A DNA stretch of 64,000 nt, taken from assembly GCA_021831785.1 (NCBI GenBank), contig JAKBMB010000028.1, forward strand, positions 226,620 through 290,619, in the 5' to 3' direction. Positions within the stretch are counted from its first letter, which is position 1, and every line of letters begins with the position of its first letter. The translations under genes were made by a program, and so were the position numbers. Below are positions 4,622-53,523 of this stretch, piece by piece. The notes beneath the pieces are model-generated. The model was not told the DNA's origin. It saw only the letters and a program-made list of their open reading frames with translations, and did not search any database. The DNA is from Deltaproteobacteria bacterium. GTDB lineage: Bacteria > Desulfobacterota > Binatia > Binatales > Binataceae.

Positions 4622-5437
4622 ATGAACTATAGCGAATACAAAGGCCTGCGTTTCGACCGGCCCGAAGACGGCGTCTTACTCGTCACGATCAACCGCCCCG
4701 AGGTCCTAAATGCCACTGACAGCCGCACGCATTGGGAGCTGAGTCGGGTCTGGAAAGACATCGACGAGGACGAGCAAACGCGGGTCGTGCTCGTAACCGG
4801 CGCGGGCAAGGCCTTCTCGGCCGGCGGCGACCTTGACATGATTGCCCAGACCAAGGGCAACCCGGCGAACGTCGCGGCCTCCTGGCGCGAGGCGGGCGAT
4901 TTGGTCTACAACATGCTCAATCTCGACAAGCCGATCGTGTCGGCGATAAATGGCGTCGCGGTGGGCGCCGGTTTGACCGTCGCGCTGATGGCGGACATCA
5001 GCATCGCCTCCGATCGCATGCGCATCACGGACGGCCATCTGCGCCTGGGCGTAGCCGCCGGCGACCACGCCGTGATCCTATGGCCGCTTCTGTGCGGGAT
5101 GGCCAAGGCGAAGTACTATCTGCTGACGGCCGACTTTATCGACGGGAGGGAGGCCGAACGGATCGGGCTGGTGAGCCTTTGCGTCCCGCACGAAGAGTTG
5201 ATGGAGCGTGCGCTGGACGTTTGCCGGCGGCTAGCGCGCGGATCGCAGCCGGCCCTGCGATGGACCAAGCGGGCGCTCAACAACTGGCTGCGCGCCGCGG
5301 GTCCGGCCTTCGACGCCTCGCTGGCCTTCGAGATGTTGGGGTTTTTCGGCGATGATCTGAGCGAGGGGATTAAGGCGTTGCGGGAAAAACGCGAGCCGCA
5401 GTTCCCCAGCGCTTCGGGCCGCAAGCCCAAGGATTAG
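4622..5437 (+). CDS. Enoyl-CoA hydratase/isomerase (crotonase) family protein
   Basis: A 271-residue crotonase-fold protein acting on acyl-CoA thioesters. The first oxyanion-hole loop GAGKAFSAGGDLD and second loop AINGVAVGAGLTVALMAD are clear. Both glutamates used by classical hydratases are absent: the GGxE position reads GAGLT and the QPE position reads DGH. A different reaction (isomerase, decarboxylase, thioesterase or hydrolase) or altered chemistry is therefore more likely than simple hydration. The ATG at 4622 has GAGG at 4613-4616; a GTG at 4616 overlaps that site. It stands alone, without other beta-oxidation genes beside it. Confidence 0.88.
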   Translation: MNYSEYKGLRFDRPEDGVLLVTINRPEVLNATDSRTHWELSRVWKDIDEDEQTRVVLVTGAGKAFSAGGDLDMIAQTKGNPANVAASWREAGDLVYNMLNLDKPIVSAINGVAVGAGLTVALMADISIASDRMRITDGHLRLGVAAGDHAVILWPLLCGMAKAKYYLLTADFIDGREAERIGLVSLCVPHEELMERALDVCRRLARGSQPALRWTKRALNNWLRAAGPAFDASLAFEMLGFFGDDLSEGIKALREKREPQFPSASGRKPKD

Positions 5438-23584: not shown

Positions 23585-23748
23585 CACCGTCCCAGCGCCG
23601 GACGCCCGGTTCGCGCAGCCCACGGTCTTAAGCCGCGGCCGAAAGGGCGCCGCGGTCCGTTGGTGCCTGCGCGTAGCGCAGCATACCGGCCGGAAGACAT
23701 CGCCGGATGCTCATGACCCGGACATGCCCTATGTCTACGGTCGGGGTA

Positions 23749-23778
23749 TTGACATTCTTGGTCCAATACGACCAAAAT
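23749..23778 (+). promoter_or_regulatory. Sigma-70-type promoter of the catabolic operon
   Basis: A perfect -35 TTGACA at 23749-23754 is followed after 18 bases by CAAAAT (23773-23778), a 4/6 match to the -10 consensus. It precedes the first transporter gene, whose start is at about 23830. Confidence 0.5.
23758..23775. promoter_or_regulatory. Inverted-repeat operator TTGGTC-N6-GACCAA
   Basis: A perfect 6-base inverted repeat sits in the spacer and over the -10 element of the promoter, where bound protein would block RNA polymerase. The half-site resembles GntR/FadR-type TGGT/ACCA operators, but the TetR protein encoded inside the cluster at 40629 is the nearest candidate regulator. Confidence 0.5.
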
Positions 23779-26088: not shown

Positions 26089-28293
26089 TTGATTATGGAG
26101 GCAATGGCGGCGACTGTTGATGCGACCAGGTGGCCCAGAACTTGGGTTGCCTCTAGGAGGCGCGATCGCTGGAAGGAGCTGCGCTGGCGCTCCTCGGTCC
26201 AACTGGTGTTGGGCGAGCTGCTGGAAAAGCAGTGGATGGAGCCCGCGATATCGTTGGCCGTGCTGATTGGGGTTACCACTTGCTTCATGATGGCGGTGCC
26301 CGGCATGGGCGCGTTCGACAACGTCATTTCGACGTTACGCGAGCTGTCCGAGTTCGCCCTAGTCGCGATTGGCATGGCTATCGTCGTCATCTCGGGCGGC
26401 ATCGACCTTAGCGTTGGCTCGATGTTCGCCTTAAACAACTATGTCGCCTTGCTTCTCGGCCTGATTGTGGGCCTTCCCATGTGGCTCACGACACTCGCGG
26501 TGCTGCTTCTGGGTTGCGTCATGGGGGCTTCCAATGGCGTCCTCGTCGCCTACCTCAAGGCAAAGCCGTTCCTCGCGACGATGGTCACGCTGCTGGTCTA
26601 CCGTGGAATAACCAACCTGCTGGACGAGCACTTTTCGATGTCGATAGCCGCCAAGGGGGCGATTCAGGATCGGTTTTGGTCTTGGTTCGGTACGGGAGAC
26701 GTCCTCGCCGTTCCTACCGCTATAGTCGTGCTGGTCATGACCGTGCTCATCGGGCACGTGATGCTGAGCCGCTCCAGGCTTGGTTGGCATATCACGGCGG
26801 TAGGCGCCAGCCGCAAGGCTGCGCGGCATGCCGGAATCGACGTCGAACGCGTGCTGCTGCTGAGCTATGTCTTTTCGGGATTTCTGACCGCAGCGGCGGC
26901 CATGCTGTACGCAGCCAGGGTCAACAGCCTGAGCCCTTACACAGCCCTGGGCATGGAGTTTGCGGTCCTCACCGCGGTGGTTCTGGGGGGCATCAGCTTG
27001 GCCGGCGGCAACGGCACGGTCCCTCGCGCGCTGATCGGAGCGGCGACGATCAGCATTCTGTCCAAGGGACTGTTACTGATGAACGTGGGTGGCGAGACCT
27101 ACACGCTCATCCAAGCAGTGATCCTACTGGTGGTGGTGGGCACCGATATCAAGTGGGCCAAGAATCGCGCTAAAGCCATCCAGAAGATCTACATAAATCC
27201 AACATATCTCTACTTCGAGCCCGCTCCAGGCATCGCGCCGGATGCTGAAAGTCCATTCGCGATTAACAATCGGCTTTCCAATTCCTTTCCGATCGGTCTG
27301 GGCGTGGTTGAAGGTCCTGAGGACGTGGTACTTGATTCTCAGGCTAGGCTGTACACCGGCGACAGGCGCGGATGGATCTGGCGATTCTCCGGCGTAAATT
27401 TCGACAAGGCGGAGATCTTCGCCAAAATCGGCGGCATGCCGCTGGGCTTGCAGTGGGACAACGACGGCAATCTGGTGATCTGCGTGGGCGGCATGGGTCT
27501 GTACAGCGTCGATCCGCAGGGCCGCGTCACCAAATTGACAGACGAGACAAACCGCACTTGGTATCGGCTTAAAGACGACTCGCGCCTACGGCTGGCGGAT
27601 GACTTGGACATCGCCTCGGACGGCAAGATTTACTTCAGCGAGGCTTCGGTGCGTTTCGAGGCGCACGATTGGATCGAAGATGGTCTCGAAGGCCGACGTA
27701 ACGGCCGGCTGATCTGCTACGACCCGGCCACCAAGACGACGCGTACGGTCCTGAAGCGGCTTGTCTTTCCCAACGGCATAGCCGTGTCGCACGACGGAAA
27801 TTCGGTGCTTATCGGCCAGACTTGGCTTTGTCGAATCTTACGATACTGGATTTCAGGACCCAAGAAGAGCAAGACCGAGGTCTTCGTAGATAACCTTCCA
27901 GGCTACGTCGACAATATTAACCGCGCGAGCGACGGCAACTACTGGGTTGCCCTGGTTGGCATCCGCTCGCCGGCATTCGATCTAGCCTATGCACACCCTA
28001 GATTCCGGCGGCGAATGATGAAGCGCGTCCCGCGTGACGAGTGGCTTTACCCGAGTATGAATAACGGATGCATCATCAAGGTCGCCGAGAATGGTCGCGT
28101 TCTCGAATCCTACTGGGATCCAACCGGCAATTCGCATGCTACCGTCACTTCGATGAGGGAACACGATGGATATCTCTATATCGGTGGGCTGAACAATAAC
28201 CGGGTTGGACGCATCGAGCTGGCCGAGGCAGGGCGTGGTTACTCTGCGGCGCCTGCTGAACCGGTGGTATATCCCGAGCGGTTGGAGGGATAG
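26089..28293 (+). CDS. Fusion: RbsC-like permease plus SMP-30/strictosidine-synthase-like propeller
   Basis: A 734-residue two-domain protein. Residues 1-365 are an ABC permease: VAIGMAIVVISGGIDLSVGS, the loop VGASRKAARHAGIDVER and VVLGGISLAGGNGTVPRALI. After a short linker, residues about 394-720 form a six-bladed-propeller-like domain: VVEGPEDVVLDSQARLYTGD, then FPNGIAVSHDGNSVLIGQTW and a C-terminal GYLYIGGLNNNRVGRIEL. Members of that fold are calcium-dependent lactonases, paraoxonase-like esterases or strictosidine-synthase relatives. The frame is continuous, so the fusion is not a read-through artefact visible here. TTG 26089 is favoured by AAGGAG 8 bases upstream. Confidence 0.88.
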   Translation: MIMEAMAATVDATRWPRTWVASRRRDRWKELRWRSSVQLVLGELLEKQWMEPAISLAVLIGVTTCFMMAVPGMGAFDNVISTLRELSEFALVAIGMAIVVISGGIDLSVGSMFALNNYVALLLGLIVGLPMWLTTLAVLLLGCVMGASNGVLVAYLKAKPFLATMVTLLVYRGITNLLDEHFSMSIAAKGAIQDRFWSWFGTGDVLAVPTAIVVLVMTVLIGHVMLSRSRLGWHITAVGASRKAARHAGIDVERVLLLSYVFSGFLTAAAAMLYAARVNSLSPYTALGMEFAVLTAVVLGGISLAGGNGTVPRALIGAATISILSKGLLLMNVGGETYTLIQAVILLVVVGTDIKWAKNRAKAIQKIYINPTYLYFEPAPGIAPDAESPFAINNRLSNSFPIGLGVVEGPEDVVLDSQARLYTGDRRGWIWRFSGVNFDKAEIFAKIGGMPLGLQWDNDGNLVICVGGMGLYSVDPQGRVTKLTDETNRTWYRLKDDSRLRLADDLDIASDGKIYFSEASVRFEAHDWIEDGLEGRRNGRLICYDPATKTTRTVLKRLVFPNGIAVSHDGNSVLIGQTWLCRILRYWISGPKKSKTEVFVDNLPGYVDNINRASDGNYWVALVGIRSPAFDLAYAHPRFRRRMMKRVPRDEWLYPSMNNGCIIKVAENGRVLESYWDPTGNSHATVTSMREHDGYLYIGGLNNNRVGRIELAEAGRGYSAAPAEPVVYPERLEG

Positions 28294-38618: not shown

Positions 38619-39827
38619 ATGAAGACGAACGCTGTCGATCTTGGCGGATTTCTCGAGCGCGCTTACAGGAATGCGCCGGCTGTAAAGAGACTCTTCGATG
38701 AGGCTGGAATAATACCCGGAAGCATCAAAGAGCCGCATCAGCTGACCAGGCTTCCCGTCACCAAAAAGGAGAAACTCCTCGAGATGCAGCGCGCCGAGCC
38801 GCCCTTCGGCGGATTTTGCGGCGTGCCGATCGAGAAGATACGCCGCATATATGTCTCGCCCGGCCCTCTCTACGACCCGCAGGGCGCCGACGACCGAGGT
38901 ATGGGATTCAAGCAAGTGTTCCAGGCGGCTGGGATCGGACCTGGAGACATCGCGCTGAACACGTGGTCCTACCATCTCGTGCCGGCGGGGATCGCCTTCG
39001 ATGAGGCTCTCACCGCATCGGGAGCGACAGTGATACCGGCGGGGGTGGGGAACACCGACCTCCAGGCCCGGGTGATAGTCGAGCTCGGGGTCACGGTGGT
39101 GGTCGCCAGCACGGCCTTTTTCGTCACCCTAACCGAAAAGCTGGCGGAGATGGGATACGACCTCCCTGGCGGCTGGAAAGTAAGAGCGGCCTTTCTTGGC
39201 GGCGAGCCCGGCGACTGGTACGCGAAGCGCCGACAACTGGAACAACGATTCTCCCTGCGAAGCTTTTCTGCTTACGGGACCGCAGACCTTGGCATGATCG
39301 GTTGGGAGTGTGGATACGAGCCTGGCTACCATCTACTGCCGACCAGGATCGTTCAAATCTGCGACCCCTACAGCGGGCAGCCTCTAGCTGACGGGGAGCT
39401 CGGGGAGGTCGTGGTCACCGCATTGAACGAGGCCTATCCGCTCATCCGATTCGGCACCGGCGATGTAGCTTCACTGCTGCCGCCCTGCCTATGCGGCAGG
39501 CTTGGCCAGAGGCTCTCGCCGCTCGTCGCCCGAGTAGGAGATGCGGTCAAGGCGAGAGAGATTTTCCTCTATCCGCGCAACATCGAAGAGCTGCTACGAA
39601 GCGTGCCGGGCCTTGCCGGAGCGCAGGTGGTGGTGACCCGAGCGGGTCATCGGGACGAGATCCGGCTGCGTGTGCATCCCCAGCCTGGAGCGAACGCCGA
39701 AAGCATCGTGAGCGAAGTAAGCAAGGCCTTCGCGACGCTGTGCCGGTTGCGCGCCGATACCGTCGAAATAGTTCGTGACGGAAACCTTGAAAACGAACCA
39801 GCAATCGCGGACCGGCGACGTCTGTGA
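38619..39827 (+). CDS. PaaK-like protein with non-canonical nucleotide loop
   Basis: A 402-residue PaaK-family protein. In place of the TSGTTG loop it has YVSPGPLYDPQGADD, a variant seen in a PaaK-like subgroup whose activity is unclear. Later motifs are kept: AYGTADLGMIGWECG, IRFGTGDVASLLPP and a C-terminal domain beginning RVGDAVKAREIFLYP. It lacks the first 40-50 residues usual in the family. It may be a ligase with different phosphate binding, or a regulatory or acyl-transfer relative. Confidence 0.7.
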   Translation: MKTNAVDLGGFLERAYRNAPAVKRLFDEAGIIPGSIKEPHQLTRLPVTKKEKLLEMQRAEPPFGGFCGVPIEKIRRIYVSPGPLYDPQGADDRGMGFKQVFQAAGIGPGDIALNTWSYHLVPAGIAFDEALTASGATVIPAGVGNTDLQARVIVELGVTVVVASTAFFVTLTEKLAEMGYDLPGGWKVRAAFLGGEPGDWYAKRRQLEQRFSLRSFSAYGTADLGMIGWECGYEPGYHLLPTRIVQICDPYSGQPLADGELGEVVVTALNEAYPLIRFGTGDVASLLPPCLCGRLGQRLSPLVARVGDAVKAREIFLYPRNIEELLRSVPGLAGAQVVVTRAGHRDEIRLRVHPQPGANAESIVSEVSKAFATLCRLRADTVEIVRDGNLENEPAIADRRRL

Positions 39828-44505: not shown

Positions 44506-44680
44506 ACGCTCACGTAAGCCGGTGAGGCTTGCTACTAATGCCGTCCGTTCATAACTAGAATCCGGTTCCGGTTGACCCAAGACCGGGCCCCAGAAGAGCG
44601 GGTGTAGTCTTTGTTTGTCGCCAACCGTTTGAAGGTTGTTGGTGCGGTTGCAGCCTGGTAGATTCGGGCACGCTCAAGCG
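44506..44680. other. Short intergenic region with inverted repeats
   Basis: Contains CAACC-N7-GGTTG near 44622 and CCGGT/ACCGG half-sites near 44568. They are possible regulator sites before the last two genes; the match to any known operator is weak. Confidence 0.3.
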
Positions 44681-45901
44681 ATGGGTGCGCAGGACACAGA
44701 GGGACCGTTCGGTCGGATCAAGGTGGTCGAATGTGGCTGGGGCGTGTCAGCAGCATACGGAGCTAAGCTGTTGGCGGATCTTGGAGTCAATGTTATCAAG
44801 CTGGAGCCGCCCGGTGGCGATCCGGCTCGTCAATGGGGTCCCTTCCCAGATGGCGTGCCCAACCCGGAAAAAAGCGGGCTGTTCGTTTATTTGAATACCA
44901 ATAAGCGTGGCGTCGTCCTGGACTTGAAGCGCTCAGAGGGGCGTAAGCTGCTCGGTCGCCTCCTGGAGCGCGCGGACATTCTGATACATAACATATTGCC
45001 TCCGGACCGCGAACAATACGGCCTGCTAACCTCTACATTCAAGGCCGCTTATCCACAGCTCATAGTTGTTTCGATTTCTATGTTTGGCGATAGCGGCCCT
45101 CGGGCTCACTGGCGCGGCTCCGAACTTATTGCCTCGAATGCGGGCGGCTGGGCATTTCTTTCTCCGGGTGCGTCATCCCACCCCGAACTCGCGCCGCTGA
45201 AAGCTTTCGGCCATCAGTGCGACTTTCAGGCCGGCGTCCATGCCGCCTTCCTCGCGCTCGCAGCTTATCACTACCGCGCGAGCACCGGCAAAGGCCAGCA
45301 TATTGACGTCTCCGAGCAAGAGTGCATTGCAGCAATGCTGGAGATGAATCTGATGCATTATAGCTATGGTGGCCGGGAGACCTCACGCCTCGGCCAGCGG
45401 GCGCTGGGGCCGTGGTTCATCGGCGACTGTGCTGACGGAAGGATTTTCCTTGTTTGCATCGAAGAAGACCAGTGGCAGCGGCTGGTGGAATTCATGGGCA
45501 ATCCGGAGTGGGCGCATGAGCCGCTATTTAGGGATCGTGTGGTTCGCGGGCAGAACCTAGACGCGCTTAAGGCACTGATGACTGATTGGCTCGCTCAGTG
45601 GAAGGTGATGGATTTATATAAGGAAGCACAGAGACGACGGATACCTGTAGCTCCGGTTCACGCAATGAGCCGGCTCCTGGAGAACGAACAACTTCGCGAG
45701 CGTGGGTACTTCGTCGAGTTTCATCAGTCCGGAATGAACCAGATCAAGCTGCCTGGTCCCCCATCGCAGTACGGGTGTGCCGCATGGGCGCTTAAGCGAC
45801 CGGCTCCACACCTGGGAGAACACACTGAGGAGGTGCTATGCAGGGAGCTGGGGCTCTCAACCACCCAGTTCGATGCGCTGAGGAAGGCCGGGATCGTGTA
45901 A
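44681..45901 (+). CDS. CaiB/BaiF-family CoA transferase 2
   Basis: A 406-residue class III CoA transferase. It shows IKVVECGWGVSAAYGAKLLA, NVIKLEPPGGDPARQWGPFP, NTNKRGVVLDLKRSEGRKLL and DFQAGVHAAFLALAAYHYRA, the last holding the expected catalytic aspartate. ATG 44681 is used; no good ribosome site is visible and TTG 44636 is an alternative. The acyl donor is unknown. Confidence 0.87.
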   Translation: MGAQDTEGPFGRIKVVECGWGVSAAYGAKLLADLGVNVIKLEPPGGDPARQWGPFPDGVPNPEKSGLFVYLNTNKRGVVLDLKRSEGRKLLGRLLERADILIHNILPPDREQYGLLTSTFKAAYPQLIVVSISMFGDSGPRAHWRGSELIASNAGGWAFLSPGASSHPELAPLKAFGHQCDFQAGVHAAFLALAAYHYRASTGKGQHIDVSEQECIAAMLEMNLMHYSYGGRETSRLGQRALGPWFIGDCADGRIFLVCIEEDQWQRLVEFMGNPEWAHEPLFRDRVVRGQNLDALKALMTDWLAQWKVMDLYKEAQRRRIPVAPVHAMSRLLENEQLRERGYFVEFHQSGMNQIKLPGPPSQYGCAAWALKRPAPHLGEHTEEVLCRELGLSTTQFDALRKAGIV

Positions 45902-45986: not shown

Positions 45987-47207
45987 ATGGGAGATCGGCC
46001 GCTCGATGGAATCAGGGTATTGGATTTTACCTGGGCGTGGGCCGGGCCATTCGCCACATTGCAACTTGCGCATCTCGGCGCAGAGGTGATCCGCGTGGAG
46101 ACAACTATGCACAGGTTGTGTGTCACACGCGCAATTCCGCCGTTCGCAGATAACGTGGTTGGCGCGAATCGGGCTGGCTATTTCAACCAGTACAACCAAG
46201 GGAAGCGCAGCATTACGCTTAATCTGCGTAGTCCGCGGGCGCTCGAAATGATCTATGAGCTGGTTAAGCACTGTGACATCGTGGCGGAAAATTTTGGTGC
46301 CGGCGTTTCCGAGAGGCTGGGAATCGGGTATCCGAAGCTGCGCGAATGTAGGCCGGATATTATAATGATCTCGATATCGGCCTACGGCCAAACCGGACCG
46401 GCCAGGCGCTTTATAGGCTACGGACCGGTCGTCTCGGCATTTTCCGGTTTTTTTTCGACAACCGGCTACGTCGGTAGCGAGGAGCAGGAAATCGGCATAT
46501 CGTATCCTGATCCCAATGCGGGCGCGCACGGCGCGTTTGCGCTGTTGGCGGCCCTGACCTACCGCGACGCCACGGGCGAGGGACAATACATTGACCTATC
46601 AATGGTGGAGACCGCCGTTTGCGTGATGGGGGAAGGACTGCTGGACTACCAACTCAACGGGCAAGAGCCGGTGCGCAATGGTAATCGAGATCGGGTGATG
46701 GCGCCCCACGGCTGCTACAAGACTAAGGGCGACCCAGATAAGTGGGTGGCGATAGCGGTCAGCAATGATGTGGAGTGGGGCTCGCTGTGCGTTGCAATGG
46801 GGCTTCCCGGACTTGTGCGGGACGAACGGTTCGCTACGGCAGAGGCCCGGAAGAGAAACGAGGATGCCCTCGATGAGCTGATTACCAATTGGACCCGCAG
46901 CCGCGACCGTTGGGAGATCGCCTGCTTGCTTCAGAGCGTTGGCGTTGTGGCGTTTCCTGCAATGAGCAACAAGGATCTATCTACGGATGCGCACCTCATG
47001 GAGCGCGGATTCCTAGTCAGGCTACGCCACCCGGAGATAAGCGAACGGGTTCACGCGGGAATTCCATGGAAAATGTCCGAGACGCCCTGTGAGGTGAGGA
47101 GCCCTGCCCCGCTTCTGGGCGCCGATACGGAATGGGTGTTAAGCTCCTTGCTTGGTTATTCGCACGAGGAGATTGAACAGCTACGTAAAGATGGGGTCGT
47201 AGCTTAA
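45987..47207 (+). CDS. CaiB/BaiF-family CoA transferase 3
   Basis: A 406-residue class III CoA transferase. It has IRVLDFTWAWAGPFATLQLA, GAEVIRVETTMHRLCVTRAI, KRSITLNLRSPRALEM and the putative aspartate region YPDPNAGAHGAFALLAALTY. ATG 45987 is supported by GGAGG at 45974-45978. Last gene of the catabolic cluster; beyond it the sequence becomes mobile-element debris. Two related CoA transferases side by side may form a heteromer or act on different acids. Confidence 0.88.
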   Translation: MGDRPLDGIRVLDFTWAWAGPFATLQLAHLGAEVIRVETTMHRLCVTRAIPPFADNVVGANRAGYFNQYNQGKRSITLNLRSPRALEMIYELVKHCDIVAENFGAGVSERLGIGYPKLRECRPDIIMISISAYGQTGPARRFIGYGPVVSAFSGFFSTTGYVGSEEQEIGISYPDPNAGAHGAFALLAALTYRDATGEGQYIDLSMVETAVCVMGEGLLDYQLNGQEPVRNGNRDRVMAPHGCYKTKGDPDKWVAIAVSNDVEWGSLCVAMGLPGLVRDERFATAEARKRNEDALDELITNWTRSRDRWEIACLLQSVGVVAFPAMSNKDLSTDAHLMERGFLVRLRHPEISERVHAGIPWKMSETPCEVRSPAPLLGADTEWVLSSLLGYSHEEIEQLRKDGVVA

Positions 47208-47329
47208 GGAGCACTCGGTAATACTTGATTCGGCCTCACTTGCCGGTTCGGTATCGCGCTCAAAAGGCCGTGGATCCTACCAGGCTGGTAGAGGGCCGGT
47301 CCTGCGGGTTCGTCACTTACCCGAAGGGT

Positions 47330-47835
47330 GGTGCAGCAGGCGGCCGAGAAAATCGACGACCTCGGTGGGATGAATAATGGCGGGGTTGAGCGTGAAGTAG
47401 GGGTTTCACGAGATGATCCCGGTGGCGCCGAAAGCACTTTCCAGTTGAAGTGATACTGTAACGCCGGGGTCTGTCCGCGCGGCGCCGAGACGCGCACGCG
47501 ATGCAGCCGCTCGCGCAATCCGCTCTCGTCGAGGAAGGCGATGGTCCGCCCCTCGCAGAGCACTTTTCTTGATCTGCTGCCCGGCAGCATCGCGCTCAGC
47601 GCTGCGCCGCCTCCTCGTCGCGCTCCGGCGCCTTCCCGGTGGGCCTCCGGCAGGTACGGTTAAGCTTATGCAGGACGCGCCAGAGGTGAGTCTCGTGGTA
47701 TCGCACGCCGCACTCGTACTCGATCAGATCGCGCACCCGCGCCGCAGTCCTCAGCCCGGTGCCGAAGCCGAGCGCTTCGGGGTCGCGCTCGAGCGCGTGC
47801 TCGATGTGCTTGCCAGTGCCGGCGCTAAATGTTAG
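47330..47835 (-). mobile_element. IS630-family transposase remnant
   Basis: On the minus strand, fragments of an IS630/Tc1-type transposase read in order but in shifted frames: a winged-helix part (RDLIEYECGVRYHETHLWRV), the DDE part FLDESGLRERLHRV with APRGQTPALQYHFNWK, and later EVVDFLGRLLHHPSGK in another frame. Frame changes and the missing C-terminus show it is dead. Terminal repeats were not found. Confidence 0.7.
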
Positions 47836-47899
47836 CTGGATGCCGACGTTAAATGTCCCTCTTAAGCGGCAGCCACACTACCTTCGCATGCGGTAAGCC

Positions 47900-48290
47900 G
47901 CGCTTTAGCGCGCGGCGGCGGTCGGCGGCGCGCCAGAGCAAGCTTGATTCCTACAAGCCAATAGTAGATCGGCTGCTCAAAGACGGGGGGTGGAACGCGC
48001 AAGTGATTCTGCGCGAGATCTAAGTCGCTGGCTACCAGGGCAAGAGCAGCATCCTGCGCGACTACATCCGGCCGAAACGGCCGCCTAGGACAGCGCGGGC
48101 GACGGTGCGGTTCGAGACTGCGCCGGGCCGCCAACTGCAGAACGACTGGGCGGACCTGGGCACGGTGCTGGGCGGGCGGGCGCACAAGGTCCAGTTCGCG
48201 GTCAACACGTTGAGCTATTCGCGCCGGTTCCGTTTCGTCGCGATGGATTGCGCGAACGCCGTGTACACCTACGAGAATCTCATCTTAGGC
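47900..48290 (+). mobile_element. IS21-family IstA transposase remnant
   Basis: Plus-strand translation gives SKLDSYKPIVDRLLKDGGWN then, after an in-frame TAA at 48021-48023, GYQGKSSILRDYIRPKRPP and RFETAPGRQLQNDWADLG. These are the core of IstA, including the first catalytic aspartate (NDWADLG). The fragment ends near TYENLI. No IstB is present. Confidence 0.7.
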
Positions 48291-48534
48291 TTCGAGTTGC
48301 CCCCGGCGCCTGCGCGCCGAGACCTCTTTGACGTAACGATCCAGCGCTTCGTCCAAACTGGTCCGCTCGGCGTCGCCCAGGTTGACGAAGCGCCCCCTCG
48401 GCCATCCGGCCTTCGACCTGGGCCGCCCAGCGCTCAGCCTGGGGGCGGCTATCGAAGCTTGCCGTGACCAGCTCGAACCCTCGCCTGCCTATTTGTACCT
48501 GCCACACGTGGCTCCGCCAGCATATCGTTGCCAT
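48280..48534 (-). mobile_element. Tyrosine integrase N-terminal remnant next to tRNA-Leu
   Basis: Minus-strand WQVQIGRRGFELVTASFDSR with QAERWAAQVEGRMAEG matches the N-terminal arm-binding region of phage-type integrases; after a frameshift it continues as FVNLGDAERTSLDEALDRYV. The catalytic domain is missing. It lies about 100 bases from the 3' end of the tRNA-Leu gene, the typical integration side, so it marks an old island inserted at that tRNA. Confidence 0.65.
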
Positions 48535-48638
48535 GCGCTTCGGTGCGACAGATTTGTGACAATTGTGAAGCTGCTGGGGCTTGCGCTGCCTGGGCAGACC
48601 CCGCCACCGCTAAAAGTGGCTATTTTACGAGAAATTTG

Positions 48639-48727
48639 TGGTGCCGGGGGCGGGACTCGAACCCGCACGGAGCTTGCGCTCCAGGGGATTTTAAGTCCCC
48701 TGTGTCTACCGCTTCCACCACCCCGGC
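48639..48727 (-). tRNA. tRNA-Leu (anticodon TAA)
   Basis: The minus strand folds as a class II tRNA. The acceptor stem GCCGGGG/CCCCGGC is closed by discriminator A and an encoded CCA (48639-48641 on the plus strand reads TGG). The anticodon loop CTTAAAA within GGGGA/TCCCC gives anticodon TAA. A long variable arm (GGAGC...GCTCC) and the TPsiC sequence GGTTCGAGTCC are present. It decodes UUA. Confidence 0.93.
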
Positions 48728-48834: not shown

Positions 48835-49317
48835 TCACGGGTTGCGCCGCTTAAGCTCGCGCTCGATCTCGCGGCGGGTCTGCTTTTGCGCCGCGACGGC
48901 GCGCTTATCGTACAGGCGCTTGCCCTTGACCAACGCCAGCTCGACCTTCACCCGCCCATGCTTGAAGTAAATTTTCATCGGCACCAGCGAGTAGCCTCGT
49001 TCGCGCACCTTCCCCCACAGCCGGCTGATTTCACGCCGATGCATCAGCAACTTGCGCTCGCGCTCCTCCTCGTGGCCGAAGCGGCCCGCCGGAGCGTACG
49101 CGCCGATATGCACGTTGGTAAGAAAGACCTCCCCGCGCTTGATTCGCGCGTAACTGTTGCGCAGGTTCACTTTGTGCGCGCGCAAGGCCTTGACCTCGGT
49201 GCCGACCAGCACGATCCCGCACTCGATCGCCTCCTCGACAAAAAAATCATGCCGAGCCTTGCGATTTTCGGCCACTAGCTCGTAGCCCGAGCCCTTCACC
49301 GCCCTGTCCTGCGCCAT
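48835..49317 (-). CDS. smpB: SsrA-binding protein SmpB
   Basis: A 160-residue SmpB, the tmRNA partner in trans-translation. Hallmarks are ENRKARHDFFVEEAIECGIV, GTEVKALRAHKVNLRNSYAR, NVHIGAYAPAGR and the basic C-terminal tail KQTRREIERELKRRNP. ATG 49317 is used; ATG 49326 is three codons upstream. It is divergent from ssrA, 121 bases away, so the two trans-translation components are adjacent. Confidence 0.95.
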   Translation of the reverse strand: MAQDRAVKGSGYELVAENRKARHDFFVEEAIECGIVLVGTEVKALRAHKVNLRNSYARIKRGEVFLTNVHIGAYAPAGRFGHEEERERKLLMHRREISRLWGKVRERGYSLVPMKIYFKHGRVKVELALVKGKRLYDKRAVAAQKQTRREIERELKRRNP

Positions 49318-49428
49318 CGCATGCATAGCTTAACCGGCGCCGACGGCGATGATAAGCTGACCGCGAAAGCCGCGCTGGCACGCTTTTGGGGTTTGTGGTA
49401 ACATAACTAGCAGTGAGAAAGTCCCAAA

Positions 49429-49438: not shown

Positions 49439-49799
49439 GGGGGCGAAACTGGGTTCGACGAGGACAAGAGGATCACGGACGCACGCCGGGGTACTGTTGG
49501 CCCGTAAAACAAACAGACTGCGAAATTTATCCGCAGACGATTACGGTTACGCTCTAGCGGCCTAAGCGCCGCTGGCGTCCTCCCGCCGCAGGCCTGCGGT
49601 GGCGGAGTAGGGCGTCGATTAGCAGGCTAGGCGCTCGCCGTTTGCCGGTGGGGCAAGGCGCCGAAAGCAAAATCGGCTGGCCGCTTAGCAGCCTGTCCTT
49701 GGGCGGCTTAAGCGGCGAGATAAAATACACGGACTAAGCGTGTAGCGGTTGTGGTCTGACGGTTTTCGGACGGGGGTTCAATTCCCCCCGCCTCCACCA
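49439..49799 (+). ncRNA. ssrA: tmRNA (one-piece)
   Basis: The 5' end GGGGGCGAAACTGGGTTCGACG and the 3' end GGGGGTTCAATTCCCCCC with CGCCTCC-A-CCA form the tRNA-like part; the GGGGGCG/CGCCTCC acceptor pairs over 7 bases with one G-U. The tag frame runs 49533-49565: GCA resume codon, encoded peptide ADDYGYALAA, stop TAA. The ALAA end fits the proteolysis-tag rule. CCA is encoded. smpB lies just upstream on the other strand. Confidence 0.95.
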
Positions 49800-49806
49800 A
49801 GTTTCT

Positions 49807-50265
49807 CTAGGAAATTCGGGCCTTTTTTCCGCAACCCCCTTGGGGGGTCCGGTCAGGGGTCCGGTTTTTCCCCAAAAAACGCGGCCGCCAGAGGTACTGC
49901 ACGTCCGCCGAGGCGTGCGAGGATCGCTCGCGTCTGGAGCGCGATCGGTCCTTTCTCGCTTCGTCGAATGCGCGCCGAAAGGCGCGATAGGCCGCCCCTA
50001 CCTCGCTATCGTCGCCGTCGCGGCTCACGTCGGCGGGCACGCGTTTGGCGTAAAAATAGAGGACATCCGCCGAAAGGTTGAGAATCTTCGCGAGCTGCTC
50101 GGTCACCTCGTTCTCGGACGGGTAGCGCCGGTCATGCTCAAGATCATTGAGGTACGGCGGTAGAACCTTGCGGCCGTCTTCTCGGCAAAGACGTTCGCCG
50201 ACTTCCTTCTGGGTCAGTCCCGCCTTCTTGCGCGCTTCCGTGATTACCTGCCCGAACGTCTTCAT
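49807..50265 (-). CDS. XRE-type HTH regulator directly behind ssrA
   Basis: A 152-residue protein with an N-terminal XRE helix-turn-helix (TFGQVITEARKKAGLTQKEV) followed by PPYLNDLEHDRRYPSENEVT, then a charged tail, rich in Arg/Ser, without a known domain. ATG 50265 has GAGG about 5 bases upstream. Its stop is only 8 bases from the tmRNA 3' end, a preferred integration site, so it may be cargo or a remnant of an integrated element. Confidence 0.75.
   Translation of the reverse strand: MKTFGQVITEARKKAGLTQKEVGERLCREDGRKVLPPYLNDLEHDRRYPSENEVTEQLAKILNLSADVLYFYAKRVPADVSRDGDDSEVGAAYRAFRRAFDEARKDRSRSRRERSSHASADVQYLWRPRFLGKNRTPDRTPQGGCGKKARIS
49843..49864. repeat. Direct repeat GGGGTCCGGT
   Basis: Two copies of GGGGTCCGGT are separated by 2 bases just inside the 3' end of the HTH gene. 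The repeat encodes its GC-rich tail and is near the tmRNA end, but it does not match the tmRNA 3' sequence, so it is not an obvious attachment site. Confidence 0.35.
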
Positions 50266-50284
50266 GCCATCCTCATCCCTCAGA

Positions 50285-50461
50285 TTATCCTCTCGTCGCC
50301 AGTGCCAACGCATCGGCGATGGTCTTCAGCGGTAGGGCCAGTTTCAGCGGATCGTCAAGCAGTCGCAACGCCCCGAACCGCTCATACCAAGCCGCCGCCC
50401 GCTCGTCCTTCGCATCGATCGCGAGAGCCACACCGCCCACCTCCACGGCGATTTTCTTTGA
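50285..50461 (-). pseudogene. GNAT acetyltransferase C-terminal remnant
   Basis: The minus-strand frame reads VGGVALAIDAKDERAAAWYE then RFGALRLLDDPLKLALPL, which is the last third of TacT/AtaT-type GNAT toxins that modify aminoacyl-tRNAs. The acetyl-CoA-binding core and the partner antitoxin are missing, so it is a broken remnant inside the ssrA-linked region. Confidence 0.6.
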
Positions 50462-50547
50462 CAATGTCGATAACCCGGCTCCAGACAAGCGATCCATTGA
50501 TCATCGCCAAAGGTCACGATTTTTTCGGATGTTTCTGACCCGTGCCG

Positions 50548-50570
50548 CTAGGGAAGCTCTGCACAGGTCG
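50548..50570. repeat. IS5-type left terminal repeat and target duplication
   Basis: CTAG target copy followed by the left inverted repeat. Confidence 0.8.
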
Positions 50571-51726
50571 CCGAGCAGAGACGGTTAACTGAAGTGATCA
50601 TGGGAATCGGGGTGAATGGAGGGACATCGAGTGGTGTTTGGCGTCGCAGTGGTCGGCGCGGCGGCTGGGGGCTGCCCGGAGTTCGCTCACCACGCGCAAC
50701 TCACCGCGCTCGGCAACAGTTGGTAGCGGACTTGGTAGAGATTGGCCAGTGCGAACATGGTATGCGCGCGGGCCAGGTTCTTGACCAAGCCCCGATACCT
50801 CACTTTGACGAAGCCCCACAGATGCTTGACCACGCGCAACGGATGCTCGCCGCGGGCGCGGGTCCGCGAGCGGGCGCAGTTGATCTTCTTCCAGCGCGCG
50901 GAAAGCTGCGCCCTGGAGTTGGGCCGCCGATTGATCCGGTAGCGCACCCCGCGCGCCGCATAGGCCTGCCGATCGGCTTCCTTCCAGTACGCCTGGTCGC
51001 CGAACACTTCGCGCTCCTGCCCGTGCAGCAGCGCGGGCAACTGCGTGATGTCGGCCGCCGCTGCGTTGGTCGCGGTCACGGTGTGGACGATGCCGCGCTT
51101 ATCCGCCCCGATGTGCAGCTTCATGCCGAAGTGCCAGTTCCGGCCCTTGCGCGTCTGCTTCATCTCGGGGTCACCGGTCGCGCTCGCGTTCTTGGTCGAA
51201 CTCGGCGCCGCGATGATGCTCGCGTCCACGATGGTCCCCGCGCGCAGCAACAGCCGCCGCTCTTCGAGCAGCCCCGCAATCGCCTCGAAGATGCTCTTGG
51301 TGAGCCCGTGCTGCTCCAGCAGGTGGCGAAAGCGCAGAATCGTACTCTCGTCCGGCACCACGTCGTCGCCCAGCTCCACACGGGCAAACCGGCGCATCGA
51401 CTCGCTGTCGTAAATCGCGTCCTCGGCCTGCGGGTCCGACAGGTTGAACCACTGCTGCAGGAAGTAAATCCGCAGCATCTTCTCCCGCCCCAGTGGCTGG
51501 CGCCCCTGTCCCGCCTTGGGGTAATGCGGCTCGATCAGCGCGAGCAGCCGCGCCCACGGAATCACTGCGTCCATCTCGGCCAAAAACCGCTCACGCCGAG
51601 TCACCTTGCCCTTGTGCGCCCACGCCATCGATGCGAACGTCCGCTGTTCACCCATCACTCCACCTCTGCACCCATCCACCGATCAACTTCATTTTACCCA
51701 TATCGATCGACTTGTGCAGGGGTTCC
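50552..51726 (-). mobile_element. IS5-type insertion sequence, apparently complete
   Basis: Terminal inverted repeats begin GGAAGCTCTGCACAGGTCG at 50552 and, on the other end read inward, GGAACCCCTGCACAAGTCG at 51726 (16 of 19 identical). The GGAA start and flanking CTAG on both sides (50548-50551 and 51727-51730) are as in IS5, which duplicates a 4-base CTAG/TTAG-type target. Length is 1175 bases, with one transposase gene that is uninterrupted. Confidence 0.88.
50687..51655 (-). CDS. IS5-family DDE transposase
   Basis: A 322-residue transposase. It contains LRIYFLQQWFNLSDPQAEDA, DESTILRFRHLLEQHGL, the first DDE aspartate in AGTIVDASIIAAPSSTKN, GMKLHIGADKRGIVHTVTAT, and the second aspartate in VFGDQAYWKEADRQ; the C-terminal ARTRARGEHPLRVVKH region carries the glutamate. 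No stop or frameshift interrupts it, so the element may be active. ATG 51655 is preferred over an earlier ATG. Confidence 0.92.
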   Translation of the reverse strand: MGEQRTFASMAWAHKGKVTRRERFLAEMDAVIPWARLLALIEPHYPKAGQGRQPLGREKMLRIYFLQQWFNLSDPQAEDAIYDSESMRRFARVELGDDVVPDESTILRFRHLLEQHGLTKSIFEAIAGLLEERRLLLRAGTIVDASIIAAPSSTKNASATGDPEMKQTRKGRNWHFGMKLHIGADKRGIVHTVTATNAAAADITQLPALLHGQEREVFGDQAYWKEADRQAYAARGVRYRINRRPNSRAQLSARWKKINCARSRTRARGEHPLRVVKHLWGFVKVRYRGLVKNLARAHTMFALANLYQVRYQLLPSAVSCAW

Positions 51727-51730
51727 CTAG
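51708..51730. repeat. IS5-type right terminal repeat and target duplication
   Basis: Right inverted repeat followed by the second CTAG copy. Confidence 0.8.
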
Positions 51731-52309
51731 GTGGCGCTGCTGGCGGGCGGCATGTTGATTTGGGCAATCGAGGGCAAGGCGAAATTATCGACCGAAGCGA
51801 TCACCGGAGTCGTATTTTCGGTCGCGCTTGCGATCGGCAGCCTGACTGCTCGGGGCGAAGAACTTATCGACGCCCTGTTCGGAGCGCCGGGCGGTATGAC
51901 AGCCATGGAAACAGCATTCGGTCTGCTCGCCGCCTTGGCGGTGACCGGTTTCATCGTCAAGGCGCGAGATCGTCTGCTCGTATCGCTGGTATCGACGGAG
52001 GTCGCGATCGCTTCGGATATCGGCGTGGCGCGTCTGGAGTTGTCATTTCTGCTCGCTTTCGCGGTGACCGTCGCGCTCGGGATGCGTTATCTCGGGGTCT
52101 TGCTCATGGGCTCCATGATCATCATTCCCGCGACCGTTGCGAAGCGTCTTGCGAGAAGCATCGACGGTATGTTCGCGATTGCAATTGGAGCTGGGCTCGC
52201 CTCCACGCTCTTGGGTACTTGGATCGCCGCCGTGGCACATCGTCCGTCCGGTCCGATCATCGTCGCCATCGCCGGCAGCCTTTTCTTCCTTAGCCTGCTC
52301 AAACCCTGA
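51731..52309 (+). pseudogene. Truncated ABC-3 family metal permease (ZnuB/MntB-like)
   Basis: A 192-residue open frame with hydrophobic segments typical of the second half of ZnuB/MntB permeases (STEAITGVVFSVALAIGSL, ITGVVF to FLLAFAVTVALGMRYLGVLL, then MIIIPATVAKRL). About 70 N-terminal residues of the family are missing where the IS5-type element begins. Removing the IS and one CTAG copy would leave TAG in frame just before GTG 51731, so truncation probably preceded or accompanied the insertion. It is not expected to work. Confidence 0.7.
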
Positions 52310-52437
52310 CGGTCCGCCGGGTTCTTTGTGCGAAGACCGGATGCGAGGCGGAGCTTGCGTTAGAATCGCGGCCAGGCTGCGCCCCTTATCGCGCGGGCCG
52401 GCGTTGAGGGTTTATCCGACAAAGGAGACTTAAGCCT

Positions 52438-52686
52438 ATGACGGCCAGCGCCCAGATCAGTATCTATCCGCTACGCCAAGAGCACCTCGGCCCCGCTGTG
52501 AAGGCTGTACGCAATGCCCTTGAGAAGCACCGATTGACTCCGCAGGTCGGCCCGATGAGCACGACCGTGACCGGGGAAAGCGGCGTCGTGTTCGCCGCAC
52601 TCGCCGAGGCGTTCGCTAAAGTCGCAAGCAGCAGCGAAGTCGTGATGACCATTGCAATTTCCAACGGCTGCCCGGTCCCGAGCTGA
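52438..52686 (+). CDS. Thiamine-binding-like protein (MTH1187/YkoF family)
   Basis: An 82-residue ferredoxin-like-fold protein. ISIYPLRQEHLGPAVKAVRN and VGPMSTTVTGESGVVFAAL, then MTIAISNGCPV, match the MTH1187/YkoF pattern known to bind thiamine or related ligands. AAGGAG at 52422-52427 lies 10 bases before ATG 52438. No TPP riboswitch was recognised upstream. Confidence 0.8.
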   Translation: MTASAQISIYPLRQEHLGPAVKAVRNALEKHRLTPQVGPMSTTVTGESGVVFAALAEAFAKVASSSEVVMTIAISNGCPVPS

Positions 52687-52708
52687 CCCTTCCACGCCAG
52701 CAGACGCC

Positions 52709-53425
52709 TTGGCTACCACGCGCATCACGAAGACAGCCGGCGAGGTTGGGCCAGACGCTTATACTGACTGGCGCACCTCTGCTCTCGGCGCGATCACCGA
52801 GGTCCTGGAACAGGAACTAATATTGGAGCTGTCGGGATCTGTATCGGGCAAGGCGGTGCTGGAGGTCGGTTGCGGGGACGGGGCCCTGACCCGCGAATTT
52901 TGGCGCCAAGGCGCATCGCTCGTTGTCGGATGTGATCCGGATCGGCGCATGATCGCAAAGGCTGTCGCCCGCGCGACTGCCGGCCGGCCTGCGATCAGCT
53001 ACCTGCTCGGCCGCACCGAGCATCTGCCGTTGCGCGCGCGCAGCTTCGATCTCGCAAGTGCGGTGACAGTTCTCTGCTTCGTTGAGGAAAAATCCCAGGC
53101 CGTGCGGGAAATGGCGCGGGTGCTCAAGCCCGGTGGCCGCGTCGTCATAGGCGCGCTGAGTAGATGGAGCACGTGGGCGGCTTCGCGGCGAATCCGCGCT
53201 TGGTTGGGGAACGAGTTCTGGCGACAGGCGCGCTTCGCGACCGCGCGCGACTTGCGCGCGATGGCGACCGGCGCCGGCCTACGCGTCGACCGGCTCTGCG
53301 GCGCGGTCTACTACCCCCACTTTGCCCTGGCGGCACGCGCGATGAAGCCGCTCGACCCAATCCTACGCCGGATAACTACCTTCGGTGCGGCATTTATCGC
53401 GATACAGGCGACCAAGCAAGCGTGA
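52709..53425 (+). CDS. Class I SAM-dependent methyltransferase
   Basis: A 238-residue methyltransferase. AVLEVGCGDGALTREFW is the SAM-binding motif I, then the acidic VVGCDPDRRMIAKAVA, LPLRARSFDLASAVTVLCFV and a post-motif VLKPGGRVVIGALSRWS. The substrate is unknown. TTG 52709 follows the previous stop; TTG 52652 would overlap it. Neither has a good ribosome site. Confidence 0.85.
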   Translation: MATTRITKTAGEVGPDAYTDWRTSALGAITEVLEQELILELSGSVSGKAVLEVGCGDGALTREFWRQGASLVVGCDPDRRMIAKAVARATAGRPAISYLLGRTEHLPLRARSFDLASAVTVLCFVEEKSQAVREMARVLKPGGRVVIGALSRWSTWAASRRIRAWLGNEFWRQARFATARDLRAMATGAGLRVDRLCGAVYYPHFALAARAMKPLDPILRRITTFGAAFIAIQATKQA

Positions 53426-53523
53426 TCTTGCAGCCGGCGCCGTCATGCGACGGGCAACGGATTCCCATCTAAGGCTGCGCTCGGTTATTGTGGAAACACA
53501 GGCAGCGCAGGAGGCTGCGGGCG

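Follow-up and report, generated by a model that had tools for sequence, protein, structure and literature searches.

The tRNA-Leu(TAA) gene bordering the catabolic gene cluster studied here was, as judged from its sequence context, very probably once targeted by an integrative element, since relatives of an integrase stub found beside it mostly have a tRNA upstream on the same strand. A link between the cluster and this element is not supported, and the present position of the cluster is best read as a lineage-specific rearrangement. The window, i.e. the whole 64-kb stretch of DNA analyzed, corresponds to positions 226620-290619 of contig C4 (365,824 bases) in G000, a draft genome of 3.68 Mb in 34 contigs. 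G001 is its only congener among the genomes searched.

Organization of the locus

Six-frame reading of the 1.43 kb between the stop of the last cluster gene (47207) and tRNA-Leu(TAA) revealed the remnants of three mobile elements, referred to below as the scrapyard, and no complete gene was found in this gap. The features of the locus are the following.

23585..23768, no strand: left synteny break of the cluster; G001 contig C150 is colinear up to 23584 and G001 contig C21 from 23769
45987..47207, + strand: CoA-transferase closing the catabolic cluster, of CaiB/BaiF type as judged from the adjacent genes
47316..47766, - strand: IS630-family transposase remnant, three pieces in three frames
47940..48314, + strand: IS21-type IstA remnant with one in-frame stop, lacking both ends
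48288..48534, - strand: N-terminal stub of a tyrosine integrase, frameshifted
48639..48727, - strand: tRNA-Leu(TAA), complete, with the 3' end pointing left, toward the scrapyard
48835..49326, - strand: smpB, 86% identity in G001, single match in each of 55/57 genomes
49439..49799, + strand: tmRNA (ssrA), with smpB on the non-scrapyard side of tRNA-Leu(TAA)
50687..51679, - strand: transposase, long frame with DUF772 and DDE_Tnp_1, beyond the tRNA-smpB-tmRNA block

The type of the last CoA-transferase was assigned from the gene before it (44636-45901), which matches Pfam CoA_transf_3; the CoA-transferase shares 78% identity with G001 C36:4332-5546. The gene at 48835-49326 is presumably smpB, as judged from its sequence and its position beside tmRNA. 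DNA like the transposase at 50687-51679 is present at several places in G001.

The initial annotation had placed IS630, IS21 and integrase pieces in this order up to tRNA-Leu(TAA), and the order was confirmed by the six-frame reading and by database matches, which range from E 1e-12 to 1e-34 for the remnants and are far beyond chance. None of the five single ORFs of the scrapyard that were tested has a Pfam match at E up to 1, so a plain ORF annotation would miss all three elements.

Remnants of IS630 and IS21

The IS630 remnant is composed of pieces at 47599-47766, 47438-47566 and 47316-47399, all on the - strand and in three frames. When read through, it matches Pfam HTH_33 (E 1.2e-12), and tblastn retrieved plasmid genes annotated as IS630 transposases, with a best E of 3e-23 and 42-43% identity in the top three. 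The gene is broken, and its DDE part has no Pfam match and is visible only in tblastn to annotated IS630 genes. The IS21 remnant matches 2300 plasmid records (best E 8e-22), the top matches sharing 47-49% identity over 94% of the remnant, and similar stretches were found in 13/56 other genomes searched. Among the eight matches listed, the plasmid positions carry no annotation, and no Pfam match was obtained for 47940-48314. It is an IstA-like piece only, and we take it to be IstA from sequence motifs.

The integrase stub and its family

The integrase stub consists of two pieces, 48394-48534 and 48288-48392 (- strand), with one frameshift between them, and its first ATG lies 104 bp from tRNA-Leu(TAA) on the same strand. 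The stub is degraded, and its likeness to an intact copy covers about 93 of 333 residues, stopping at the IS21 remnant. No integrase Pfam match was found for the stub itself; the catalytic C-terminal domain, PF00589 at residues 177-325 of the intact relative on contig C24, is absent from it. This relative, G000 C24:15672-15911, is the best match of the stub, self aside, among 116 genomes (76% identity, E 4.6e-34). The integration had been described as old; the stub has a single frameshift and 190/232 aligned bases identical to the intact copy, which does not establish such an age. A segment in the middle of the stub, 48364-48460, is near-identical to the C24 copy, the similarity being distinctly lower on either side of it, and gene conversion between the two copies is possible.

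A total of 12 places in 9/116 genomes belong to this integrase family at E up to 0.01, derived from 13 search rows, the window stub accounting for two rows through its two frames. At eight of the 12, the window included, the integrase is closely preceded on its own strand by a tRNA gene or by a copied tRNA 3' part. The genes are those of Leu(TAA) in the window, Leu(CAA) at two places, Leu(CAG), SeC, Arg and Phe, and the copied part is that of Phe in G009. At the other four (G015 C1, G046, G112 and G071) neither a tRNA, as searched with ARAGORN, nor a tRNA copy was found. Three of these are weak matches (E 0.005-0.01); G015 C1 is a strong one (E 4.4e-15), with a T-arm-like sequence seen by eye that was left out of the 8/12 count. 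As an informal background, any tRNA is present at 2/19 CoA-transferase loci and at 1/28 loci of the cluster marker gene described below. An integrase fragment of the family lies beside tRNA-SeC (TCA) on G003 C25. These counts agree with the integration hotspot postulated in the initial annotation, as does, suggestively, the same tRNA in G001, which may be followed by an integrase start.

A sister element at tRNA-Leu(CAA)

The integrase on C24 is open for 333 codons (Phage_integrase, E 3.6e-28), and its frame starts 69 bp downstream of tRNA-Leu(CAA) (C24:16020-16105). A DNA alignment between the window and C24 spans the tRNA, the spacer and the integrase start (335/431). The element (C24:1-15950) is incomplete, being cut by the contig start. 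All eight frames examined are open and lie on one strand, and their domains comprise the integrase, HTH_17, a Toprim/LPD7 protein with a weak Mob_Pre, AAA and a SNF2-helicase. The relaxase assignment rests on Mob_Pre evidence below the Pfam cut-off. HmaA is closest to the helicase in PADLOC, and the element possibly carries defence cargo. Seven other proteins of the element were tried against contig C4, without a match.

Search for a second copy of the tRNA 3' part

As a check on the island, it had been proposed to look for the tRNA 3' end repeated at the far side of the cluster; no such repeat is present in either the window or the whole of contig C4. No 14-base match to the 3' part of tRNA-Leu(TAA) occurs elsewhere within the window. 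The last 57 bases of the tRNA were scanned against both strands of all 365,824 bases of C4, and no second copy was detected; nothing scored above 30 except tRNA-Leu genes, namely tRNA-Leu(TAA) itself (114) and tRNA-Leu(GAG) (49). As controls, the same scan scored 52 for a divergent copy on contig C5 and 76 for tRNA-Leu(CAA), so a real att copy on C4 should show. A candidate attR at C4:225247-225261 (15 bp, the highest-scoring same-strand match apart from the tRNA, 50 kb from it, score 30) was rejected; it lies inside an ABC-permease-like frame, and its score was reached by 2/30 shuffled queries on part of the contig and by 16/40 on the whole. A whole-genome tRNA search, in which 40 candidates were scored, missed the C5 copy, and the negative result therefore applies to contig C4 only. 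The attR may have been deleted or may lie on another contig.

Duplicated tRNA parts were found at two other places. On G009 C5, an exact 41-bp duplicate of the tRNA-Phe 3' part lies 4 kb from the gene (L116:674-714 and 4872-4947), with an integrase fragment of the stub's family right behind it. On G000 C5, the 3' part of a tRNA-Leu(CAA) stands alone at 39423-39489, from the anticodon region to CCA, and resembles a residual att site; no family member was identified among the genes beside it, and a transposase-like frame (IS3 OrfB by sequence reading) is located about 1.3 kb off. Because both duplicated parts start in the anticodon region and reach the CCA end, we infer that integrases of this family cross over in the 3' half of the tRNA.

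Comparison with relatives

With gaps, the window is colinear with G001 contigs C150 (10.2-23.58 kb), C21 (23.77-34.8 kb), C36 (41.4-47.2 kb), C138 (the tRNA and smpB-tmRNA) and C35 (53.5-63.9 kb); 34.8-41.3 kb was left out of this comparison. The surroundings of the cluster differ on both sides between the two genomes, each being rearranged relative to the other. C36 runs 1.96 kb past the last CoA-transferase and has, instead of a tRNA, a LivH-type permease that shares only 34% identity with its top-scoring G000 match; this stretch contains no tRNA. C21 has a flavoprotein gene and further genes ahead of the cluster, and over the 10 kb compared G000 DNA matches were obtained only for the cluster end and the flavoprotein gene, the latter on contig C33. 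Beyond the MaoC gene, C150 carries different genes from the window, and these correspond to genes on G000 contigs C12 and C26. No tRNA was found beside the cluster in G001 on the DNA examined, and the left cluster edge in the window (23585-23768) contains no tRNA repeat, att site or mobile gene.

Cluster DNA is 78.7% identical between the two genomes over 11 kb, and 73.9-77.4% in the CoA-transferase/ligase part next to the tRNA; the values are 81.0% for the smpB-tmRNA block, 73-82% for the left flank and 79-80% for the right flank. Since the divergence of the cluster is close to that of the block and flanks, sequence comparison suggests that the cluster was present in the common ancestor of both species.

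The synteny with C138 also ends on the other side, some 70 bp downstream of tmRNA, and the gap at 49870-53510 holds an HTH gene, a GNAT-like frame (by sequence reading) and the multi-copy DDE transposase. Colinearity of the IS630 stretch and the post-tmRNA region with G001 C109 was considered and rejected, the order being reversed.

Only 129 bp separate the 3' end of tRNA-Leu(TAA) from the end of contig C138. The last codons of the contig read ATIVKRQSAR, comparable to VATIRRRG near the C24 integrase start; with ten residues, an integrase start after this tRNA in G001 is only suggestive. In G015, which belongs to another genus, the tRNA-smpB-tmRNA order is the same as in the window, and the genes after the tRNA encode an MFS transporter, a protein like arsenite methyltransferase and a Cas3-like helicase (names by sequence reading). 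A match to the Toprim/relaxase-like protein (E 2.5e-6, 37% identity) lies 5 kb on, and no integrase of the stub's family was matched there. The contents in G001 and G015 fit a variable site at tRNA-Leu(TAA). No empty site was seen in a relative, the tRNA contig of the sole congener stopping at 129 bp.

Distribution and composition of the cluster

The gene at 26089-28293, in which an ABC permease is fused to a strictosidine-synthase-like domain and which is followed by a second strictosidine-synthase-like gene, was used as the cluster marker. Strong matches (E <1e-200) were found only in G000, G001 and G036, i.e. in 3/57 genomes, and there were none at this threshold in 33 other genomes of the same family. 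A short peptide-pattern scan located at least 28 loci in named genomes, mostly alpha- and gammaproteobacteria; two of the 28 loci, L126 and L153, appear to be G001 C21 and G036 C15, L126 and C21 both having a marker match of 88%. Among these loci, 27/28 have no tRNA on the DNA examined, and L139 has a tRNA-Thr about 8.5 kb away. Together with the other neighbours of the cluster in G001, where the stretches examined contain no tRNA, this gives no support to the initial suggestion that the cluster arrived on an island at this site.

The idea that the fusion is peculiar to this lineage was rejected, as 28/29 loci match both parts with no extra bases between them; at the remaining one, L152, only the first part was matched. 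Trees of the two fusion parts (28 and 25 rows), one of which carries a long-branch warning, name no donor and pair the window with L126 alone.

The GC content of the cluster is 0.596, compared with 0.630 and 0.637 on the window flanks. In 2-kb bins it is 0.597 for the 11 cluster bins against 0.627 (SD 0.028) for 76 other G000 bins, of which 12% are as low. The contrast is smaller in G001 (0.60 and 0.58 in the cluster versus 0.60-0.62), and the G036 contig carrying the marker has a GC of 0.718. Acquisition of the cluster by an ancestor of the genus, followed by vertical descent, fits these data and is possible, and so is loss elsewhere as the alternative to acquisition. Horizontal acquisition may likewise have taken place by a route other than the tRNA-Leu(TAA) element. 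No paper joining 'Binatota' and 'CoA transferase' came up in a literature search.

Origin of the present arrangement

We consider it likely that an element since lost from tRNA-Leu(TAA) left the stub, and that a rearrangement joined the cluster to the scrapyard, the cluster itself not being recognisable as cargo. An integrative element of a clade-wide family would have entered tRNA-Leu(TAA) with its integrase gene just downstream on the same strand, the arrangement observed in relatives. Of this element only about the first quarter of the integrase gene is preserved; the IS21 piece abuts the break, and the IS630 piece lies further out. The cluster would then have been joined to the scrapyard by a rearrangement, for which recombination between mobile pieces of this kind is a plausible route; the IS pieces have a putative role in it, and either genome may hold the ancestral order. 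The divergence between the species suggests that the ancestor of those represented by G000 and G001 already carried the cluster. The cluster GC of 0.596 and the patchy marker count against this explanation, as both are expected of foreign DNA.

Both would suit a history in which the cluster was the cargo of an island at tRNA-Leu(TAA), whose attR was later erased and whose integrase was broken by IS insertions. The integrase stub right at the tRNA with the cluster end adjoining, the strong marker matches in only 3/57 genomes, the GC about 3-4 points lower in G000 and the mostly alpha- and gammaproteobacterial relatives of the marker all speak for it. We nevertheless regard it as very improbable, given that a repeat of the tRNA 3' part is absent from contig C4, that no other protein of the C24 element matched there, and that the left cluster edge has no mobile gene. 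Moreover, the cluster adjoins different genes in G001, with no tRNA in the stretches examined, its divergence near that of smpB-tmRNA suggests that it is older than the species split, and the GC difference in G001 is small. Somewhat less improbable, though still unlikely, is that the cluster has long been a neighbour of the tRNA, that the scrapyard is debris of separate insertions between them, and that G001 is the rearranged genome. G001 is indeed also a mosaic relative to G000, its region after MaoC mapping to C12 and C26, and no outgroup examined settles the ancestral order. No evidence speaks directly against this history; G015 from another genus has other genes after the same tRNA, though it too has no strong marker match.

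Beyond the likely loss of an element followed by rearrangement, a broader model is conceivable but doubtful, in which one integrase family has moved among the tRNA targets Leu-TAA, Leu-CAA, Leu-CAG, SeC, Phe and Arg, leaving decaying stubs that serve as breakpoints of repeated shuffling, and clusters would land beside tRNA scrapyards without being cargo. An integrase stub at a tRNA beside a catabolic cluster is insufficient to call the cluster an island: here the stub can be traced to an element of a familiar type, whereas the history of the cluster itself points in another direction. The analysis also defines a testable family of integrases in an uncultured lineage.

Comparison with known mobile elements

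The locus is a case of ordinary mobile-element decay at a tRNA, a kind of thing already represented in PMC2704930 and PMC5704250. Genomic islands, as described in PMC2704930, have an integrase at one extremity adjoining a tRNA, and the same is seen at the tRNA of the window; PMC5704250 describes an integrative and mobilizable element that occupies the 3' end of tRNA-Lys. Unlike such tRNA-targeted islands and mobilizable elements, the window has an integrase stub only, with no second repeat, relaxase or assignable cargo.

Transposases of the IS21 (IstA) and IS630 types are represented by recognisable pieces, although, unlike in intact members, both are degraded and no complete IS is present. 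Of the pair of integrase and relaxase that marks an integrative and mobilizable element, the window holds the integrase stub alone and the C24 element holds both, the relaxase being putative. The C24 element and the window share the same integrase geometry at the tRNA, with the stub 76% identical to the C24 integrase; in contrast to that element, the window copy retains about 93 integrase codons and nothing else that was found.
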